Positions 30,823-40,788 of a stretch of 64,000 nucleotides of DNA are shown piece after piece. The position numbers were made by a program, and so were the translations under genes. The stretch is from Pseudomonas sp. B21-028 (GTDB lineage Bacteria; Pseudomonadota; Gammaproteobacteria; Pseudomonadales; Pseudomonadaceae). The stretch is taken from the NCBI RefSeq assembly GCF_024749045.1, contig NZ_CP087184.1, positions 2,728,001-2,792,000 on the forward strand. The letters are read 5' to 3'. Below the pieces are notes generated by a model. That model made no database searches. It had not been told where the DNA came from and saw nothing but the letters and a program-made list of their open reading frames with translations. Numbering within the stretch: the stretch's first letter is position 1; each line of letters opens with the position of its first letter.

Positions 30823-30867
30823 GTCGTTGAGTTCGACGACCCGCACACCGTGAAGATAATCGGCCAT
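30823..30867 (-). pseudogene. Tail-sheath gene start, 15 codons (copy 1)
   Basis: Reads MADYLHGVRVVELND, matching the N-terminus of myovirus/R-tailocin tail-sheath proteins (HGVRVxExNxGTR type). After codon 15 the reading changes to unrelated sequence exactly where the direct repeat ends. Only the start of the gene is carried. Confidence 0.6.
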
Positions 30868-30985
30868 GGGTTGCCTGCGCTGTGTTTGAAGAACATGCAC
30901 AGGCCACCTCGTTCGTGCTGAATCGGCGGCTCTGTAGGCAGAAGGGTTACAAGGTCCGACTCGGCCTCACGTTACAGGCTGGGTG

Positions 30986-31339
30986 CTAGCGCGGATCGAC
31001 GTTATCCAACGCCCGATTTGCCAATAGCTCGCTCAACTCGATGACTTGCTGAATACCCAGCGCAACATGCCGCCGCGACCCCTCAAGGTCGAACGCCAGG
31101 TCGTTGATCATGGCGTTGGCCGAGGCCAGGCTTTCGCTGAGGTTGGCGAGCAGACTTTCAGTGTCGATGCCGTCGATGACGGTGAAGAGCTGACCCGGTG
31201 GTGGGGCGGTTTTGGCATCGGTGTCTTTCGGGTTCAGATAGAAATCCAGCGCCCGATCGGTGGCCTCTTGGACTTTCTTTGGATCGAGGCCGTTGGTGCT
31301 GGGGTCTGTTTGCGGAGGGTTGGGAGTTACTTTGAACAT
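30986..31339 (-). CDS. DUF6124 family protein, copy 1
   Basis: 117 aa, starting MFKVTPNPPQTDP (ATG 31339; the ATG at 31372 would add 11 residues with no match in copy 2). Conserved blocks are LDPKKVQEATDRALDFYL, LFTVIDGIDTESLLANLSE and ALGIQQVIELSELLANRAL, mostly helical. This matches the small DUF6124 proteins that occur in many copies in Pseudomonas and have no established function. It differs from copy 2 at only a handful of residues. A long structured leader lies upstream. Confidence 0.82.
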   Translation of the reverse strand: MFKVTPNPPQTDPSTNGLDPKKVQEATDRALDFYLNPKDTDAKTAPPPGQLFTVIDGIDTESLLANLSESLASANAMINDLAFDLEGSRRHVALGIQQVIELSELLANRALDNVDPR

Positions 31340-31395
31340 GATGACGCTCCTATGGGGAATGGGAGCCGCCAAGACCTGTCGCTAAACAGAATGGT

Positions 31396-31468
31396 GGCGA
31401 CTGCACGCAGGTTAGCGAACCGGACATAGGCACCCGGTAGACCCGAAGGTCTCCTACATACAGCCGCC
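31396..31468 (-). ncRNA. Structured RNA element, three-way junction (copy 1)
   Basis: On the minus strand a 16-bp closing helix (31453-31468 with 31396-31411) encloses a hairpin AGACC-UUCG-GGUCU (31439-31452) and a CCGG/CCGG hairpin. The C(UUCG)G tetraloop favours this strand. Relative to copy 2 the closing helix changes at 8 of its 16 positions and every change keeps pairing. It starts about 57 nt upstream of the DUF6124 start, so it is either a cis-acting leader or a small RNA. Confidence 0.68.
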
Positions 31469-31543
31469 ATAACGTAATTGCAGTTAGATCCCGCAACGAA
31501 GCATGGACGCTTATGTGCCTACGGTTCGGGTCGCTAAACCCGA

Positions 31544-31560
31544 TCACTGATGAGCAGTGA
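31544..31560 (-). ncRNA. Second covarying hairpin of the DUF6124 leader (copy 1)
   Basis: Stem TCACTG/CAGTGA with a 5-nt loop. In copy 2 (33912-33928) the stem is TCGCTGA/TCAGCGA, so one pair has changed from A-T to G-C on both sides. It is probably part of the same ~180-nt RNA as the three-way junction. Confidence 0.5.
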
Positions 31561-31864
31561 CGGAAACCAAGCTACCGGTACGGCCCGGGGCACACAATCG
31601 GGCGGATTCTGGCTTAGTTGTAGGCAAAGGCGCAAGGCGACGTAGCCTCGGGACTAGGGCTCGGTGTTACGGAAGTGTATGGCTAGAGGACTCGACCCGC
31701 CGGATAAAATGGATGTCCTTTTCCGGGGTTGTAGGCAAGCTCCGATAGTTGCGTAGGAGGAGCCCTTTACGGTGTTTTTTAATCGTAACTGCCTTGATGG
31801 CCAGTTCTTCACCGGGATATTTTCCTCAGGTGGCTGAAAATTCAGCGACCGGGATTGGTACCCG

Positions 31865-32020
31865 ATGAGTCTGCCGAAGACGCAGCGTTCATACGTGATA
31901 CCGACCGGCACACGTCTGGGCTGCGCATCATTTCACGGTGATGGGCAAGGCGGCATCAAGGGCGTGGTGATGAGCGTTACGCCCAAATCCGGGCTGGCCC
32001 TGTACGGGGCGAAACCATGA
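31865..32020 (+). CDS. Small ORF upstream of the Abi_2 gene, 51 aa
   Basis: Reads MSLPKTQRSYVIPTGTRL followed by GCASFHGDGQGGIKG and ends SGLALYGAKP. There is only a weak ribosome-binding site. I do not recognise the family. It lies on the same strand as the Abi_2 gene, upstream of the terminator-like hairpin, and could be a small partner protein or just part of a noncoding transcript. Confidence 0.3.
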   Translation: MSLPKTQRSYVIPTGTRLGCASFHGDGQGGIKGVVMSVTPKSGLALYGAKP

Positions 32021-32085
32021 CGGTCCAGAGGAGCACACGCCGCATTGACGCCGCGGTGATGGGCGCAGATACTTAACCCAATAGC

Positions 32086-32142
32086 GCCCGAACCTCTGGT
32101 GCTGGCTCAGTCCAGCACTATGTTCGGGCCTTCTTTTTTCTG
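32086..32142 (+). ncRNA. Hairpin and T-run before Abi_2: candidate abiF-type RNA / attenuator
   Basis: Outer stem GCCCGAAC (32086-32093) pairs with GTTCGGGC (32122-32129) and contains an inner stem TGCTGG/CCAGCA with loop CTCAGT, followed by a T-rich tract. It ends about 10-20 nt before the Abi_2 start. Conserved RNAs (abiF RNA motif) are known upstream of Abi_2-family genes. This hairpin is in the right place and strand, but its identity with that motif is inferred. It could also be an ordinary terminator of an upstream transcript. Confidence 0.6.
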
Positions 32143-32150
32143 GACAAAGG

Positions 32151-33149
32151 ATGTCGCAGCCATTAGCTCCGCCAAAGCCGTTTCGATCCTATAGCGATCT
32201 GTGCACTCTGCTCACCAGTCGTGGTATGCAGATCCTCGATGTGCCCCGCGCCAAACGTAAACTCAGTCAGATTGGCTACTACCGCTTGAGCGGATTCTGG
32301 TATCCGTGCCGTGAATTCCTTCGTAATGCCAGGGGGGACGTGGTGCTGTGCGCCGCTGGTAAAAAACCACGACGTCAAAACGCGTTTACCCCAGGCACCC
32401 ATTTCGATTCCGTTATTGAACTCTATCTGTTCGACAAAAAATTGCGCCAACTGATGCTGGATGCCATTGAGCGCGTTGAGGTGCACCTACGCTCGGCAAT
32501 CGCTCACGAGGTGGGTTTTCACGACCCGCTGGCCTATCAAGACATCCGCTATATCAATCCTTCGCAAACCAGGAACTTCACAACCAAACAGGGTAAGCCG
32601 CGCAACATTTGGAACGACTGGTCAAAGCGTCAAGAAGAGCAAATTGCTCGTAGCCGCGAGGACAGTATCGAGTGGCATCGACAGCAGCGTAAAGCAATGC
32701 CCTTTTGGGTGATCGTCGAAGCATGGGACTTTGGAATAGCATCCAAGTACTACGAGATACTCAAAGATGGCCATCGGAACAGAATCTGCAAACGGTTTGG
32801 CCTCACTCACGCAAGAATTCTTAAAGAATGGCTTCAGGAGATCAGCATCCTACGCAACCGGTGTGCGCACCATAGCCGCATCTGGAACCAGGTTTCAGCC
32901 AATCCTGTACCCACTGTGCCAAACGATCCCTACTTCCAGGGGCTCGGCCTCGACTCGAATGCGACGAGCCGTCTTTATGGTCTGATCGCGGTACTCTGGT
33001 ATCTGGTCAAAAACATCGGCGTCAACTCGAAATGGATCCATCAGGTGGCGGATGTCATCGACGTTAAACCCACGTTGCCTGGCTGCTCGTTTGCGGCGCT
33101 GGGTTTTACTGATGAAACCGGATTCCCTCGGGGTCTGTTCGGGATATGA
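32151..33149 (+). CDS. Abi_2 family abortive-infection protein (AbiD/AbiF type, HEPN)
   Basis: 332 aa. The N-terminus (RAKRKLSQIGYYRLSGFWYP) and LFDKKLRQLMLDAIERVEV are characteristic of Abi_2 proteins. The HEPN ribonuclease motif RNxxxHH is seen as RNRCAHHSRIWN (R235, H240, H241). These proteins are abortive-infection effectors, and the family is considered related to the ancestor of Cas13 HEPN nucleases. ATG 32151 has AAAGG just upstream. The gene runs opposite to the two DUF6124 genes and sits exactly between the two direct-repeat blocks, with a hairpin RNA in front. Defence role inferred from family and setting. Confidence 0.88.
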   Translation: MSQPLAPPKPFRSYSDLCTLLTSRGMQILDVPRAKRKLSQIGYYRLSGFWYPCREFLRNARGDVVLCAAGKKPRRQNAFTPGTHFDSVIELYLFDKKLRQLMLDAIERVEVHLRSAIAHEVGFHDPLAYQDIRYINPSQTRNFTTKQGKPRNIWNDWSKRQEEQIARSREDSIEWHRQQRKAMPFWVIVEAWDFGIASKYYEILKDGHRNRICKRFGLTHARILKEWLQEISILRNRCAHHSRIWNQVSANPVPTVPNDPYFQGLGLDSNATSRLYGLIAVLWYLVKNIGVNSKWIHQVADVIDVKPTLPGCSFAALGFTDETGFPRGLFGI

Positions 33150-33175
33150 CTGTGCTTATGCCATGGATAGGTATT

Positions 33176-33220
33176 GTCGTTGAGTTCGATGACCCGCACA
33201 CCATGAAGATAGTCGGCCAT
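33176..33220 (-). pseudogene. Tail-sheath gene start, 15 codons (copy 2)
   Basis: Reads MADYLHGVRVIELND, then unrelated NTYPWHKHSHIP. One residue differs from copy 1 (I for V). The sheath homology ends at the repeat boundary, next to the 3' end of the Abi_2 gene. Confidence 0.62.
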
Positions 33221-33348
33221 AGGTTGCCTGTGCAGTGTTTGAAAGGACTCTGCACAGGCTGCTTCGCCCGTGCCGGTTGGGCGAGTCGGCGGCTCTGTAG
33301 GCTGGGGGGCTACAAGATCCGACTCGGGCTTACATTACAGGCTGGGTG

Positions 33349-33702
33349 CTAGCGCGGATCGACGTTATCCAACGCCCGATTTGCCAACAGCTCGCTCAAC
33401 TCGATGACTTGCTGAATACCCAGCGCAACATGCCGCCGCGACCCCTCAAGGTCGAACGCCAGGTCGTTGATCATGGCGTTGGCCGAGGCCAGGCTCTCGC
33501 TGAGGTTGGCGAGCAGACTTTCGGTGTCGATGCCGTCGATGACGGTGAAGAGCTGACCCGGTGGTGGGTCGGTTTTGGCGTCGGTTTCTTTCGGGTTCAG
33601 ATAGAAATCCAGCGCCCGATCGGTCGCCTCTTGGACTTTCTTTGGATCGAGGCCGTTGGCGCTGGGGTCTGCTTGCGGAGGCTTGGGAGTTACTTTGAAC
33701 AT
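33349..33702 (-). CDS. DUF6124 family protein, copy 2
   Basis: 117 aa, MFKVTPKPPQADPSANG, then the same helical blocks as copy 1 (LDPKKVQEATDRALDFYL, SLLANLSESLASANAMI, GIQQVIELSELLANRAL). The near-identity of the proteins despite a much more divergent leader shows that both copies have been held under protein-level constraint or gene conversion. Function unknown. Confidence 0.82.
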   Translation of the reverse strand: MFKVTPKPPQADPSANGLDPKKVQEATDRALDFYLNPKETDAKTDPPPGQLFTVIDGIDTESLLANLSESLASANAMINDLAFDLEGSRRHVALGIQQVIELSELLANRALDNVDPR

Positions 33703-33760
33703 AGTTGTGACTCTAAGAGGTAGTGGAGCCGCCTTGTCTCGCTGCTAAACGAAAAAGGGT

Positions 33761-33832
33761 GGCGGCTGTACGCGGGTTAGCAGACCGGACCTCTTAACCG
33801 GCAGACCCGAAGGTCTCCCGCGCACAACCACC
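33761..33832 (-). ncRNA. Structured RNA element, three-way junction (copy 2)
   Basis: The same fold as 31396-31468. The 16-bp helix (33817-33832 with 33761-33776) pairs fully, the UUCG hairpin is at 33803-33816, and a CCGG/CCGG hairpin follows. It begins ~58 nt upstream of the DUF6124 start. A second hairpin at 33912-33928 corresponds to 31544-31560. Confidence 0.68.
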
Positions 33833-34137
33833 ATTACATAATGAGCGGGCACTGAGCCTGCCGGCATATGTGTGGCACTGTGCGTCAAAGGTTCTGGGCT
33901 GCTAAACCCGATCGCTGATTTTCAGCGACTCGGAGACAATAGAACCCGGGCCCATGGCGCACAAGCGGGCGGATTCTGGCTTAGTTGTAGGCAAAGGCGC
34001 AAGGCGACGTAGCCTCGGGACTAGGGCTCGGTGTTACGGGGTGTGTATGTTGTAGGACGCGATGCCTACCGTCATTAGAACCAGGGACACCCCCTTGTTG
34101 ATTGAGTCTTGCCAGCCACCCGTCACGGTGGCACAGG

Positions 34138-34345
34138 TCGATGGTCGTGGAATGGGGGAAATCGGGCGCAACCGGCCGAGCACGAATGGCCTGAACGTAA
34201 TCCAGCAGCTCTCCTGATCGTTCGGTCGTGAGGTCGTTGGTCGTGCTGAGACCACCTCGTCTCGATGACGCTCGCGTAACCAGCTCAGGCGGTGGATCTG
34301 AGCTTCCTGCCAAAGTTGCTTGATGGTCGCCAGTGGTCCTTCAAA
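34138..34345 (-). pseudogene. Phage tail-fibre assembly protein remnant, frameshifted
   Basis: From 34345 one frame reads EGPLATIKQLWQEAQIHRL then SWLRERHRDEV. Near 34240 the matching reading shifts to another frame: TTNDLTTERSGELLDYVQAI then RARPVAPDFP. Joined, these resemble the C-terminal half of Pseudomonas tail-fibre assembly (P2 G / Tfa-like) proteins, with the pattern RHRDE...TT...ELL.Y.QA.R..P...FP. The N-terminal half is missing, cut off near the IS end at 34442. The remaining part of 34060-34600 shows no intact gene. Confidence 0.5.
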
Positions 34346-34601
34346 AAACGTGGCTGGTCGACGTCGAAGACTGAAAAGTCGATGCCTTACCGCGACCGCG
34401 TGCTCTCTTGTCAGCTTTGGGCCATGCGATTGGCAGCAATCGGCCCAGAGTGTGTCAAAACCGCTTGTTAGCGGCTTCTACTCTAGTGTTTTTTCCTACT
34501 CAGCCCAGGTCAGACATCAGTTGCTCAGATTCAGTATAAGATTTCGGAAATCAGCAGGTACGCCGACAACGTGGGCTAGATGCTAGAAATCTGGGGGTTG
34601 G

Positions 34602-34874
34602 ATGATTGCAAGCAACGTTTCATATCTTTGTCCGGTTTGTGGATACCCCGGGCTTGAAGAGCCTCCATACGATGAGGTTGGCTGCTCTTCTTTTGGCATG
34701 TGCCCGTCCTGCGGTACGCAGTTTGGCTATGATGACGCAACATCTGCTCATGCTGATTTGCGGAAATTATGGATCTCTAAAGGAATGCTTTGGTGGAGCA
34801 AAGCTCAAGCGTCGCCGAGTGGTTGGGACCCGGTAAGGCAACTACAGGCGGTTGAAAAACGCATCAATATCTGA
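34602..34874 (+). CDS. Small CPxC zinc-ribbon protein inside the IS element
   Basis: 90 aa. Two cysteine knuckles, CPVCGYPGLEEPPYDE and CPSCGTQFGYDDAT, followed by DLRKLWISKGMLWWSKAQ, the layout of small cysteine-rich CPCC/CPxC proteins found across bacteria. The four cysteines probably bind zinc. It lies between the left inverted repeat and the transposase, in the same direction, so it appears to be a passenger. Its base composition is more AT-rich than the surrounding chromosome. No specific role can be assigned. Confidence 0.65.
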   Translation: MIASNVSYLCPVCGYPGLEEPPYDEVGCSSFGMCPSCGTQFGYDDATSAHADLRKLWISKGMLWWSKAQASPSGWDPVRQLQAVEKRINI

Positions 34875-34932
34875 ACAGAACACCGCTCTAGCCCTGCTAT
34901 GATTTCTGAGGGTTTCATCGCAGGGATCGCCC

Positions 34933-36363
34933 ATGAAGCGCTTTATCCAAGGTGAACATCGAGGCCAAGAAACCTTCCTTCCCGCGAGCCTCGACGATTA
35001 CGTCACGGATGCCAATCCGGTGCGCGTAGTCGACGCCTTTGTCGACGAACTCGACCTGGTCAAACTGGGTTTCGAAGGCGCCATACCGGCTGATACTGGC
35101 CGGCCGGCTTACCATCCCGCGATCCTGCTGAAAATCTACATCTACGGCTATCTGAACCGCATTCCATCGAGTCGGCGTCTTGAACGAGAAGCCCAACGCA
35201 ACGTCGAGCTGATGTGGCTGACTGGACGTTTGATGCCCGATTTCAAGACCATCGCCAACTTCCGAAAAGACAACAGCAAGGCCATCCGAGGTGTCTGCCG
35301 CCAGTTCGTGGTGCTGTGCCAGCAGCTAGGACTGTTCGAAGAAAATCTGGTCGCCATCGACGGCAGTAAATTCAAGGCCGTCAATAACCGCGACCGCAAT
35401 TTCACCAGCGCCAAGCTGAAACGGCGGATGGAAGAAATTGAATCAAGTATCAATCGGTACCTGACTGCGCTCGACGAAACCGATCGGCAAGAACCCTCGG
35501 TCGCTCAGCCCAAGGCTGCTCGTCTGCAAGAGAAAATCGACAAACTCAAAGCTCAGATGAAAGAGTTGCAGGTCATTGAAACTCAGCTCAACGAATCACC
35601 GGATAAACAGGTCTCACTGACCGATCCAGACGCCCGTTCCATGATGACGCGCGGCACTGGAATCGTCGGTTACAACGTGCAGACAGCGGTCGATACCCAG
35701 CACCATTTGATCGTTGCGCATGAGGTAACCAACGTCGGTTCCGACCGCGATCTACTCAGCTCGATGGCCAAGCAGGCCCGCGAGGCGATGGCGTCAGATA
35801 CGTTGTCGGTAGTGGCTGACCGAGGTTACTTCAAAAGCGAACAAATCCTGGCTTGTCACGATGCAGGCATCACCGCCTATGTGCCCAAGCCGATGACCTC
35901 TGGAGCCAAGGCTGACGGGCGTTTCAATAACGATGCCTTCATCTATGACGCGGCAAAAAGCGAATACATTTGTCCCGCTGGAGAGGCGTTGATCTGGCGC
36001 TTTTCCAGCGTTGAAAAAGGCCTGACGCTGCACCGTTACTGGAGTTCTAATTGCCAGGGATGCGTGCTGAAATCGAAGTGCACACCGAGCAAGCAATGGC
36101 GAGTTCGGCGATGGGAGCATGAAGCCGTATTGGAGGAAATGCAGAACAGGCTGAGCAACGCGCCGGACATGATGCGAGTCCGCAAGCGTACGGTCGAGCA
36201 TCCCTTCGGGACACTCAAACAATGGATGGGCGCCACACATTTCCTGACACGAAAGCTGAACGGAGTAAGTGCGGAGATGAGCTTGAATGTCCTCGCCTAC
36301 AACTTGAAACGAGCAATGAAAATTCTCGGTACCAGCAGTTTAATGAAGGCGCTGTCGGCCTGA
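34933..36363 (+). CDS. IS1182-family transposase
   Basis: 476 aa. N-terminal DUF772-type region (ADTGRPAYHPAILLKIYIYG, NVELMWLTGRLMPDFKTIA). Catalytic core with the first Asp in VAIDGSKFKAVNNRD, the second in VVADRGYFKSEQI, and the C-terminal signature EHPFGTLKQWMG with Glu. A coiled segment (KRRMEEIESSINRYL, KIDKLKAQMKELQ) lies between. The gene is complete and without a frameshift, so it could be active. Confidence 0.92.
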   Translation: MKRFIQGEHRGQETFLPASLDDYVTDANPVRVVDAFVDELDLVKLGFEGAIPADTGRPAYHPAILLKIYIYGYLNRIPSSRRLEREAQRNVELMWLTGRLMPDFKTIANFRKDNSKAIRGVCRQFVVLCQQLGLFEENLVAIDGSKFKAVNNRDRNFTSAKLKRRMEEIESSINRYLTALDETDRQEPSVAQPKAARLQEKIDKLKAQMKELQVIETQLNESPDKQVSLTDPDARSMMTRGTGIVGYNVQTAVDTQHHLIVAHEVTNVGSDRDLLSSMAKQAREAMASDTLSVVADRGYFKSEQILACHDAGITAYVPKPMTSGAKADGRFNNDAFIYDAAKSEYICPAGEALIWRFSSVEKGLTLHRYWSSNCQGCVLKSKCTPSKQWRVRRWEHEAVLEEMQNRLSNAPDMMRVRKRTVEHPFGTLKQWMGATHFLTRKLNGVSAEMSLNVLAYNLKRAMKILGTSSLMKALSA

Positions 36364-36570
36364 AGAGGTCTGTATTTTGGCCACCCAGCAAGGTAGAAGC
36401 GGCGCGAGGGGCTCCCAGACCCTCGTGATGATCCGCAGGACTTGTTGTGAGCAATTACTCAGCTAACAACCGTCAGCGCTGCGCGCCGACAGTGCATCAG
36501 TGCGTTTTTACACACTCTGGGCCACAAGCAGACGTTCAAATAGTGTACGACTCACTCCAAGAGTGTATTG

Positions 36571-37245
36571 ATGTCGGAAGAAAACACAAAAAACAGGGGG
36601 AAACTCATGGACAAGAACGATTCACCACGTGGTGCAGAACTCGCGAAAGTAATACGCTCCGGCTCCATAGGAGACGCAGCCAAGGAATATGTCGAGCTCG
36701 GGATAGATGCCTTGCTCGCCTCTGATGCTGCCAAATCAATCCCGGTCGTCAGCAGCATAGCGGGTATCTTCAGCGCGACATTGTCTATCAGGGATCACGT
36801 TTTTGGCGGCAAGCTTCTCCGTTTTCTTAGCCAGCTTTCCGAAATTTCAGAAAGCAAGCGAAACGAGATGCTGCGCAAGCTTGGAGAAAACGACAAATTC
36901 GCTGGGAGAGTAGGTGAGACGATAATCGAAATCCTGGAAAGGATGGAGAGCGTGAAAAAGCCGGAGCTGGCAGCAAAATGTTTTGCGGCTTATGCCAGTG
37001 AAGACATTTCGTTTGAAGAGCTTAGCCGCATCTTATTTGCTCTTGAGCGCATTCCGTCCTTTGACATCGACAAAATAGGCAAATTTTCCAGGGCGAAAAT
37101 CGAAGATGCGGTCGAAATGGATGAGTCTGTTCTGCTTGTATTTGTGAACGCCGGTCTAGGAATGAACAATGGCGGCTTTGATGGTGGTGCCATTCTCCCG
37201 ACCAAACTCTGCCAGCTTTTTCTGAAGGCCGGCTTGGTAGCATAG
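36571..37245 (+). CDS. Hypothetical protein, 224 aa, in the accessory island
   Basis: Starts MSEENTKNRGKLMDKNDSP. A hydrophobic segment (IPVVSSIAGIFSATLSIRDH) around residues 58-80 is followed by helical, charged sequence (SQLSEISESKRNEMLRKLGE, RVGETIIEILERMESVKKP). The reading is clean with AT-richer codons than the chromosome, suggesting transfer. I do not recognise the family. It lies just downstream of the IS right end (36523) and may be an island defence or immunity gene, but nothing in the sequence proves this. Confidence 0.6.
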   Translation: MSEENTKNRGKLMDKNDSPRGAELAKVIRSGSIGDAAKEYVELGIDALLASDAAKSIPVVSSIAGIFSATLSIRDHVFGGKLLRFLSQLSEISESKRNEMLRKLGENDKFAGRVGETIIEILERMESVKKPELAAKCFAAYASEDISFEELSRILFALERIPSFDIDKIGKFSRAKIEDAVEMDESVLLVFVNAGLGMNNGGFDGGAILPTKLCQLFLKAGLVA

Positions 37246-37389
37246 TCACGTGGCCGAAATCAGTCGCTTATGAATTACCACTTTCGACCAAAAGCAGTCA
37301 TCGAGTGACTACGAAATTAGGCGAGGTAAAGAGGACGAATTTATTTACCGAGGCAGCGGAAACTATGAATCTGTCCCCTGTTTTGCTTC

Positions 37390-37674
37390 TCAGGTTTCGG
37401 AGTTGTGAAGAAGAAAAACGAGGCTGCCCAAAGGTATATCTGTCTTCTGAATGTCATCCGCTACGGTAAACGGATCGTGCAGACGTTGCCTGCCTCCACG
37501 AATACACATCAGATTTTGTAAGGTGGTTTCGATTCTGCCCCCCGTCGGTGTTTCAATAACGAGTGCCACGCTCGAACGTACCGGGTGCGGAAAGTCATGA
37601 GGGATGCCAGGGCAAATCACGCAACCGACACCATTGACTTCAAAAATTTCTTCAACTTCGCAGATCAAATGCAT
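37390..37674 (-). CDS. Hypothetical protein, 94 aa, beta-rich
   Basis: Reads MHLICEVEEIFEVNGVGCVI then CPGIP, VALVIETPTGGRIETTLQ and IPLGSLVFLL. The pattern (EEIF.V.G.G.V..PG) recalls the beta-barrel domain 2/3 fold of translational GTPases seen in some small orphan proteins, but the match is weak. The ribosome-binding site is poor. It lies between the unknown gene and the truncated glcB. Function unknown. Confidence 0.5.
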   Translation of the reverse strand: MHLICEVEEIFEVNGVGCVICPGIPHDFPHPVRSSVALVIETPTGGRIETTLQNLMCIRGGRQRLHDPFTVADDIQKTDIPLGSLVFLLHNSET

Positions 37675-37795
37675 GCAATGGAGACCTAAGCGAGGGGTAC
37701 GTTTATCTAATCTATCCTTCGATTGGCCGATTCAGGGCTTTTAGATCTTCAGCCTTCGGCCTAAGCTGCCCTTCGCGCGTGTCGGCGGGCGGCGC

Positions 37796-38036
37796 CTATT
37801 GGGCACGCACTTTAATATAACAAGGCAACCAAGGCTCCTGCTCGATTGCTGCAACGTCTCCCTCGGCCAATAGCCAGTAGTGCGCGGTTGATCGGTGCCA
37901 GTTCATGCACCAGTGCGGCGAAGCCGGTCCAGAACGCTTGCGGGGCCAGGCCGGTTCCGGGCAGCACGTCGTAATCAACGAAGCGTTGCAGAACGGGGCC
38001 CACCTTCAGGCCTTGGCAGTTGACGAAATCAGTCAC
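37796..38036 (-). pseudogene. glcB: Malate synthase G, N-terminal fragment only
   Basis: Reads MTDFVNCQGLKVGPVLQRFV then DYDVLPGTGLAPQAFW and ALVHELAPINRALLA, the unmistakable start of malate synthase G. After about 57 codons the expected reading moves to another frame (AEGDVAAIEQEPW) and then ends at ~37796. More than 600 codons are gone. It sits immediately after glcG, the normal glcB place in the glc operon, so the island to its left probably replaced the rest of the gene. Confidence 0.8.
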
Positions 38037-38084
38037 TGGGATCTCTCCATCACTCGGGTTTCCAACGAGCGCAGACCGCCCACT

Positions 38085-39726: not shown

Positions 39727-40788
39727 TCAAAGCTCCGCGTAGAGGCGACCGGGGTTGAAGATGCCCTGTGGGTCGAGTCGTTGCTTCAGGTTCCGGTGGT
39801 AACGCATCAGTGCGTCGGGCAGCGGTTGGAACGGGCTGTCGATCAGACCATGGCTGTAACAGGTCACATGGCCGCCGACGCCTGCGACGATCCGGCGAAT
39901 GAACGCGGCTTCGGCGCCGGACTTGAGCCAGCGCTGGGCCCCGCCCCAGTCGATCAGTTGCCTGCCGGGCAAGGGCAGCCACGGTGTGTTGTGCGGCACG
40001 GACAGGCGCCACAGCGGCAGGTTCTCGTCGAAGAAACTCAAGCGATGTTCGTTGAGATCCTCCCAATACGAAGCGTCCAGCATTTCACCGCCCAGTCGAT
40101 CGTGGGCCGCCGCCACCGAACCTTCGCCACCTTCGAGCCGCAGATGCAGGCGTTGACCATCGTGGCAGGCAGCACTGATCGGCAGCGGCTGTTGGCCCCA
40201 TTCCGCCAGGCGCAGCAAGGCGCGATCGCTGTCCATTTCCAGGCTGATGCTCAAGGCTTGCCGAGGTTTGGGCAGGACTTTGAGCGACACGTCGGTGATC
40301 AGCCCAAGGGTGCCGAAGCTACCGGCCATCAGGCGCGACAGGTCGTAACCGGCAACATTCTTCATGACTTCGCCACCGAAGCGCAGGCGCTTGCCCTGGC
40401 CGGTGATGACCCGCGCACCGAGGACGAAGTCCCGTACGGAACCTACCCACGGGCGGCGCGGGCCGGAGAGTCCGCTGGCAATCATGCCGCCCACCGTCGC
40501 GTCGCCGAAGGAGGGCGGTTCGCAAGGCAGCATCTGCTGCGAGGCGCTCAGCACATCGGACAGTTCCTGCAGGGGCGTACCGCAACGCACGGTCACCACC
40601 AGTTCCGTCGGGTCGTAGCTGACGATGCCCCGGTGGGCGCGGGTGTCGAGGCGCTCGCCGGTGACTGAACGACCCAGGAAGGCTTTGCTGTTACCACCGT
40701 GGATCCACAGCGGCGTGGCGTTCTTCAGGGCCTGGTTGACCTGTTCGAGCAATGCGTCGCCAGCGTCCCTATCGAGTGCGCTGTTCAT
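39727..40788 (-). CDS. glcE: Glycolate oxidase FAD-binding subunit
   Basis: 353 aa. FAD_binding_4-type fold: TPLWIHGGNSKAFLGR, GTPLQELSDVLSASQQMLPC, GDATVGGMIASGLSGPRRP and VMKNVAGYDLSRLMAGSFGT. It is the shorter flavin-binding partner of GlcD in the three-subunit glycolate dehydrogenase. Its ATG overlaps the glcD stop by one base (TGATG), indicating coupling. Confidence 0.95.
   Translation of the reverse strand: MNSALDRDAGDALLEQVNQALKNATPLWIHGGNSKAFLGRSVTGERLDTRAHRGIVSYDPTELVVTVRCGTPLQELSDVLSASQQMLPCEPPSFGDATVGGMIASGLSGPRRPWVGSVRDFVLGARVITGQGKRLRFGGEVMKNVAGYDLSRLMAGSFGTLGLITDVSLKVLPKPRQALSISLEMDSDRALLRLAEWGQQPLPISAACHDGQRLHLRLEGGEGSVAAAHDRLGGEMLDASYWEDLNEHRLSFFDENLPLWRLSVPHNTPWLPLPGRQLIDWGGAQRWLKSGAEAAFIRRIVAGVGGHVTCYSHGLIDSPFQPLPDALMRYHRNLKQRLDPQGIFNPGRLYAEL

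Follow-up and report, generated by a model that had tools for sequence, protein, structure and literature searches.

Probable P2-type tail-junction remnants in Pseudomonas sp. B21-028, each with a C4 antisense RNA preceding a DUF6124 gene

The C4 RNA of bacteriophage P1 is a single textbook antisense switch. Phage P4 has a C4-like RNA, CI, which pairs with its own leader and acts on the replication genes of the satellite by early termination, and in phage P2 the genes Z/fun occupy a moron site between the tail genes G and FI. Here we describe a stretch of 64,000 nucleotides from the chromosome of Pseudomonas sp. B21-028 (NZ_CP087184.1, positions 2,728,001 to 2,792,000; hereafter the window) in which a gene of the uncharacterized family DUF6124 is present twice, each time behind a C4 RNA and next to remains of P2-type tail genes. 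The accessible sections of two reports describe P1 C4 as a processed antisense RNA (PMC5320573; PMC8198154) that holds off icd and the antirepressor gene ant (PMC8198154). For Acinetobacter baumannii, the sections available report many C4-like Group 1 small RNAs (sRNAs) per genome, with a variable a' segment and RNA sequencing (RNA-seq) data that suggest processing (PMC5320573). In the P1 nomenclature followed here, a' denotes the single-stranded segment of C4 that precedes its closing stem, and b' the segment in its hairpin loop. The immI record of P1 gives the order a1, b1, C4, a2 (7 nt, from the fourth base after C4), b2 (8 nt) and icd.

We consider it probable that two remnants of a P2-type junction between fibre-assembly and sheath genes persist in the window, each with a C4 RNA that precedes DUF6124 and has two segments complementary to the leader of this gene, and that C4 blocks translation of its own neighbour as P1 C4 blocks icd-ant. 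The blocks have the following parts.

34138..34324, minus strand: fibre-assembly remnant (P2-type tail), cut short at the 5' end and frameshifted; DNA alignment to the prophage loci L091 and L092, the L091 homologue being phrog_188
33899..33905, minus strand: a1 box TTAGCAG of copy 1, 67 nt before C4
33755..33838, minus strand: C4 antisense RNA of copy 1 (RF01695, 79.7 bits)
33742..33748, minus strand: a2 box TTAGCAG of copy 1, complementary to the C4 segment CTGCTAA
33714..33721, minus strand: b2 box ACCTCTTA of copy 1, just 5' of the DUF6124 start and complementary to the C4 hairpin-loop segment TAAGAGGT
33349..33702, minus strand: DUF6124 gene of copy 1, 117 aa, open (PF19619, E 1e-30)
33176..33220, minus strand: opening 15 codons of a tail sheath gene (P2-type) in copy 1 (sequence search and DNA alignment)
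32151..33149, plus strand: Abi_2/AbiD-type gene, 332 aa, between both copies (PF07751, E 1.5e-54; PADLOC AbiD, E 4e-53)
31531..31537, minus strand: a1 box TTAGCGA of copy 2, 63 nt before C4
31515..31521, minus strand: possible b1 box TAGGCAC of copy 2, found by eye, the complement of the hairpin-loop segment GTGCCTA in C4
31390..31474, minus strand: C4 antisense RNA of copy 2 (RF01695, 74.1 bits)
31379..31385, minus strand: a2 box TTAGCGA of copy 2, complementary to the C4 segment TCGCTAA
31349..31354, minus strand: b2 box CATAGG of copy 2, at the ribosome-binding region
30986..31339, minus strand: DUF6124 gene of copy 2, 117 aa, open (PF19619, E 1e-30)
30823..30867, minus strand: opening 15 codons of a tail sheath gene (P2-type) in copy 2 (prophage comparison and DNA alignment)

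C4 RNAs were called with the Rfam model RF01695 at a cut-off of 45 bits and DUF6124 with Pfam; what had first been noted as a structured RNA beside DUF6124 is thus a C4 antisense RNA in both copies. The units appear to have the layout of P1 immI (a1-b1-C4-a2-b2-gene) with DUF6124 replacing icd; in arrangement they resemble C4-icd, but they contain no icd-ant operon. Both copies have an a1 box, a possible b1 was seen by eye in copy 2, the a2 pairing spans 7 nt in both, and the b2 pairing spans 8 nt in copy 1 and 6 nt in copy 2. Three direct repeats, 300 nt (95%), 91 nt (96%) and 68 nt (91%) long, link the copies, whose DUF6124 genes differ at 10 of 351 bases (five in synonymous and five in non-synonymous codons). 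By analogy with P1, a single transcript would carry a1-b1-C4-a2-b2-DUF6124 and C4 would be excised from it, a step performed by RNase P in P1. Duplexes would then form between a2 and a' (CTGCTAA for copy 1, TCGCTAA for copy 2) and, across the ribosome-binding region, between b2 and the segment in the hairpin loop, and DUF6124 would stay off until this pairing is relieved.

The window copies are two of many. The genome of strain B21-028 contains 35 C4 RNAs above the cut-off (36 with one partial) and 29 DUF6124 matches, 27 of which have a C4 directly upstream on the same strand; two of these 27 paired units, at 741736 and 3097680, are damaged. The eight C4 RNAs without DUF6124 comprise one before a DUF3077 gene, four before frames of 88-94 aa without a family (L042, L043, L048 and L039, the proteins of L043 and L048 being close relatives) and three without a clear gene. 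Among sampled Pseudomonas, this genome included, DUF6124 occurs in 95 of 119 genomes and C4 in 110 of 119, at most 33 C4 being scored per genome. In the sample of the class, DUF6124 was found in one of 274 genomes, that of strain B21-028, and C4 in 12 of 229 including it. In other Gammaproteobacteria, C4 units (L171-L186) have matching boxes, as judged by eye, before other small genes.

Complementarity between each C4 and its own leader was examined throughout the genome. The script used to find the boxes recovers the annotated a1, a2 and b2 of P1. Across the 35 loci of the genome the pairing of a' with a2 spans 7 nt in 32 and 8, 6 and 4 nt in one each; in 33 of the 35, a C4 segment of 7-8 nt is perfectly complementary to the box immediately behind C4. 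In 34 loci a2 begins 3-9 nt downstream of C4. These a2 boxes represent 17 different 7-mers, and between loci the box sequences change along with the C4 that they match. The locus's own box recurs upstream as a1 in 33 of 33 cases (5.9% for non-cognate combinations). Pairing of at least 7 nt was found in 24/35 loci for b2 (non-cognate 4.7%) and likewise in 24/35 for b1 (non-cognate 6.1%), and both a and b2 pair in 24/35 cognate but only 3/1190 non-cognate combinations. None of 20,000 permutations reached the observed pairing in any of these tests. The same comparison in a second genome, G038 (16 C4), gave 7.00 versus 4.81 for a2, 7.00 versus 4.46 for b2 and an a1 box in 15/15 loci, again with 0/20,000 permutations. 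For 21 viral C4 RNAs plus P1, b2 pairing was 7.86 versus 3.99, and a1 was present in 19 of the 21 viral loci. Upstream, before a1, are a conserved TTGTGC-type stretch and a GTCGCTG...TCAGCGA stem.

The phage origin of the window copies was traced by alignment to intact P2-type prophages. Positions 33176-34315 align to L091 at 81.0% over 1144 columns and positions 33176-34324 to L092 at 82.1% over 1163 columns. The fibre-assembly gene is open in both prophages and in L091 matches phrog_188, 'tail fiber assembly', at E 3e-41; the prophage homologue of the window's sheath start is a full sheath gene (PF04984, E 4e-30; phrog_23, E 7e-137). A query of the window's 20 sheath codons gave 157 phage records at E <=10, of which the best (E 0.04) is weak alone, with a tail sheath annotation on 27 of 30 among the matches listed. 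Scanning IMG/VR with the DUF6124 protein yielded 27 loci on viral contigs. In 11 of these (L091, L092 and L094-L102) the gene immediately behind DUF6124 is a full tail sheath gene, 90-94% identical to the sheath of locus L068; several of the 11 contigs are near-identical and hence not independent cases. An upstream fibre-assembly match is present in 10 of the 11, that of L095 being weak (E 0.008), and L101 has none. C4 precedes DUF6124 in all seven of the 11 that were searched for it, and in the remaining 16 viral contigs DUF6124 is placed elsewhere. The order in L091 is tail fibre (PF12571), fibre assembly (phrog_188), C4, DUF6124, sheath (PF04984, phrog_23) and tube FII (PF04985), which we take to correspond to the P2 order with its gene names G, FI and FII. 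Contig L099 (9864-12684) has two C4-DUF6124 units in tandem between G and FI, with 36 sheath-start codons after unit 1 and the full sheath gene after unit 2; the units differ in their boxes (TTAGCAG/ACCTCTTA and TTAGCGA/CAGGAG). This tandem represents an intact counterpart to the window's double layout.

The first-pass annotation had read the locus as the scar of a P2-type cargo site with the cargo kept, from a frameshifted fibre-assembly remnant and 15-codon sheath starts, and had called DUF6124 with its RNA a moron unit. The prophage alignments and the matching gene order support this reading: at the DNA level the remnant is borne out by 81-82% identity over 1.1-1.2 kb, the sheath starts prove homologous to a full sheath gene, and the search it proposed among P2-like prophages of Pseudomonas does find C4-DUF6124 between G and FI. 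Related prophages without the cargo, in which fibre assembly directly precedes the sheath, exist as well, and their junctions have the same intergenic DNA. This junction DNA (216 bases) is matched in 17 of 199 Pseudomonas genomes. Only two of the 18 loci outside the genome of B21-028 have a C4, L067 and L077; the former is the same fadL-side site in genome G123, its DUF6124 having an internal gap of 250 bases. Of the 16 junction-DNA loci that have a sheath gene, 11 show fibre assembly immediately before it. A sheath search of 298 Pseudomonas genomes gave 42 matches in 38 genomes; among the 30 P2-type sheath loci examined of these 42, fibre assembly is directly upstream in 17 (a locus set overlapping with that of the 11/16 count), 12 lack a match to the fibre-assembly query, and DUF6124 occupies the junction in only one. 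DUF6124 is thus an occasional cargo at the G-FI site. The phage junction motif is kept in only three of 31 loci of the genome, both window copies and 4470270 (the 31 being the loci with a downstream open reading frame, two of these frames being misplaced), and therefore a moron origin explains the window copies, not most copies of the genome.

That the likeness to sheath and fibre-assembly genes is a matter of chance and the unit purely chromosomal is hardly credible: the sheath stretches are short, the pieces have no Pfam family and most copies of the genome have no phage junction, but chance resemblance is refuted for the window copies by alignments of 1.1-1.2 kb at 81-82% to intact prophages and by 11 viral contigs with the same order.

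Several observations weigh against the proposed origin and regulation. On the phage side, neither the open pieces of the remnant nor the sheath starts, taken by themselves, have a Pfam family (one unrelated sub-threshold match), and the translated remnant resembles a fibre-assembly protein weakly (26.5% over 83 aa, E 2e-4). On the side of the RNA, b2 pairs over fewer than 7 nt in 11/35 loci, copy 1 has no clear b1, and neither window copy reaches the cut-off of the c4-a1b1 model (RF03163). The G-FI copy of L091 has no a2 at the usual place, and the copy of L090 has no a1. The loci are paralogues, so that shared descent remains after permutation, and a sigma-70 scan upstream of the units gave 4.54 mismatches against 4.60 in shuffled sequences. 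No recognised C4 precedes two of the 29 DUF6124 genes of the genome and four of 20 in G038. When partners are ranked by duplex energy, the cognate leader comes first in no more than 11 of 35 rows and 19 of 35 columns, and the window copies are placed 14th and 20th. Under a looser recognition rule (a of 7 with b of at least 6; 71 loci) the own leader is recognised in 59/71 loci, but 59/71 loci also fall into one cross-recognising cluster, and the leader of copy 2 is seen by eight other C4 RNAs, one of them in the same genome.

An alternative to an antisense RNA acting as such is a leader domain acting in cis, in which a' binds a2 and the loop binds b2 inside a single molecule and C4 serves as a folding switch for DUF6124 that never acts in trans. 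We regard this as unlikely. The a2 box begins 3-9 nt after C4 in all but one of the 35 loci, as a compact intramolecular fold would require, and C4 is adjacent and on the same strand in 27 of the 29 DUF6124 matches. P1, however, has the same spacing, and the accessible sections of the literature describe its C4 as a processed antisense RNA (PMC5320573; PMC8198154); moreover, the upstream a1 box, which a downstream-only switch does not need, is kept in 33/33 loci.

At the other extreme, the dozens of chromosomal C4-DUF6124 units could form a heritable, sequence-keyed antisense set acting in trans, in which a scar silences the cargo of an incoming prophage that has the same a and b boxes. The window copies 1 (TTAGCAG/ACCTCTTA) and 2 (TTAGCGA/CATAGG) would then be two such keys. 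The boxes of copy 1 are common to L092, L094 and unit 1 of L099, and those of copy 2 to L096 and the G038 locus L129; the copies would be in different recognition groups, since each shares its boxes with different intact prophages. Under the looser rule the only loci linked with copy 1 are its three box-mates, so that it looks well insulated and copy 2 less so. Insulation between loci is nevertheless incomplete, and because the rule joins so many loci in one cluster we hold a trans-acting set of keys to be a doubtful proposition.

A third possibility is that DUF6124 is a toxin held by C4, the two forming a type-I-like toxin-antitoxin pair that is kept by addiction. Pairing at the ribosome-binding region, the many copies and their spread with prophages agree with such a system, which we nonetheless find quite improbable. 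In a type I pair no open toxin gene should stand without its RNA, and open DUF6124 genes do so in the proportions given above for both genomes, which speaks against a lethal toxin. Rather than a small hydrophobic peptide, the predicted structure shows a helical hairpin whose N-terminal part is charged, and DUF6124 has no match in the defence and NCBIfam libraries and no toxin or defence family at cut-off. The four C4-less genes of G038 are L119, L125, L127 and L131; the c4-a1b1 motif is kept in L119, L127 and L131, on which a C4 produced elsewhere may act. The genome of B21-028 also has a divergent relative of DUF6124 that lacks a C4 (L065, 2181500-2190500), in a stretch that holds a PrrF sRNA as well.

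The preferred reading, in which C4 would act as an antisense RNA on its neighbour, concerns a protein that is under purifying selection (median omega 0.26; 178 usable of 276 gene pairs from 24 genes). Its AlphaFold2 model has a mean pLDDT of 79.5 and a pTM of 0.52, with a confident helix pair at 60-84 and 88-112. Compared with the PDB (218 matches at E <=10) and BFVD (451 at E <=10), the model has no match at E <=0.001; a DUF6124 profile gave no match among PDB sequences, and PHROGs returned a sub-threshold match for copy 1 of the window and none for copy 2 or the DUF6124 of L091. No paper on DUF6124 was found in the open-licence literature searched. A trait connected with lysogeny or superinfection would be a guess from the moron site alone.

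The units appear to have a high turnover, since 12 of 20 G038 loci compared (of 31 matches) correspond to the genome of B21-028 only within the unit of about 660 bases; the other eight share flanks with one of its loci (both judged by eye). An empty orthologous site was sought there for the G038 locus L124, whose flanks are absent from it. TwoAYGGAY RNA matches are frequent beside the G038 units (e.g. L117, L125, L126 and L127).

The Abi_2 gene between the window copies had been taken as an added defence gene in the cargo. It is a real gene by its PF07751 and PADLOC AbiD matches, but its membership of the cargo was not borne out, as none of the 27 viral DUF6124 contigs has an Abi_2 relative. 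Only two relatives occur among the fetched loci, a match at 26% that lies some 2 kb away from the C4-DUF3077 locus in the same genome (L036, 343500-352000) and 34 residues at 91% in G123 (L067); Abi_2 thus lies near a C4 unit twice in the genome. Because G123 keeps the start of the gene, Abi_2 was at the site before the lineages split; G123 lacks window positions 32252-38077. Beside copy 1 (34602-36363) are a zinc-ribbon-like frame of 90 aa and a DDE transposase gene (PF05598, PF01609). An ARAGORN tRNA-Leu at 39869-39955 on the minus strand lies within a long open frame (39727-40788, minus strand) and is probably a false call.

With 35 C4 RNAs, most of them matched to their own neighbour, the genome would hold a large set of separately keyed switches: the architecture of P1 multiplied in one chromosome, with a different key at most loci. 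Such loci constitute a natural data set on the joint change of an antisense RNA and its target and offer ready-made pairs with graded cross-talk. DUF6124 gains a first regulatory context, and one of its travel routes is the G-FI moron site of P2-type prophages. The open-licence literature searched contained no paper on this P2-like hotspot.

In intact prophages the unit has the position within the tail operon that the moron site has in P2; here the cargo is another one and brings its own antisense RNA. The CI RNA of P4 shares the likeness to C4 and differs from the proposed C4-DUF6124 unit in acting by early termination on satellite replication genes. C4-like DNA is also present in the small Pseudomonas elements phiAH14b and vB_Pae_U10 and in phage Phipami28 (L187, L189 and L188), where it overlaps small early genes located next to those for AlpA, excisionase or primase and may represent a P4-type CI RNA. 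With C4 of P1 and P7 (c4-icd-ant; RF01695, RF03163) the units have in common the C4 fold, a boxes of 7 nt that flank C4, a b2 box located at the ribosome-binding region and a gene directly behind. They differ in that DUF6124 or another small protein replaces icd-ant, that one chromosome contains 35 C4 RNAs, most with their own boxes, and that some units lie between the P2 genes G and FI. As in the part of the Acinetobacter baumannii study that was accessible, many C4-like RNAs with a variable a' occur per genome; that part leaves their targets open (incoming phage or other transcripts), whereas in our case the gene directly downstream has the matching boxes (PMC5320573).

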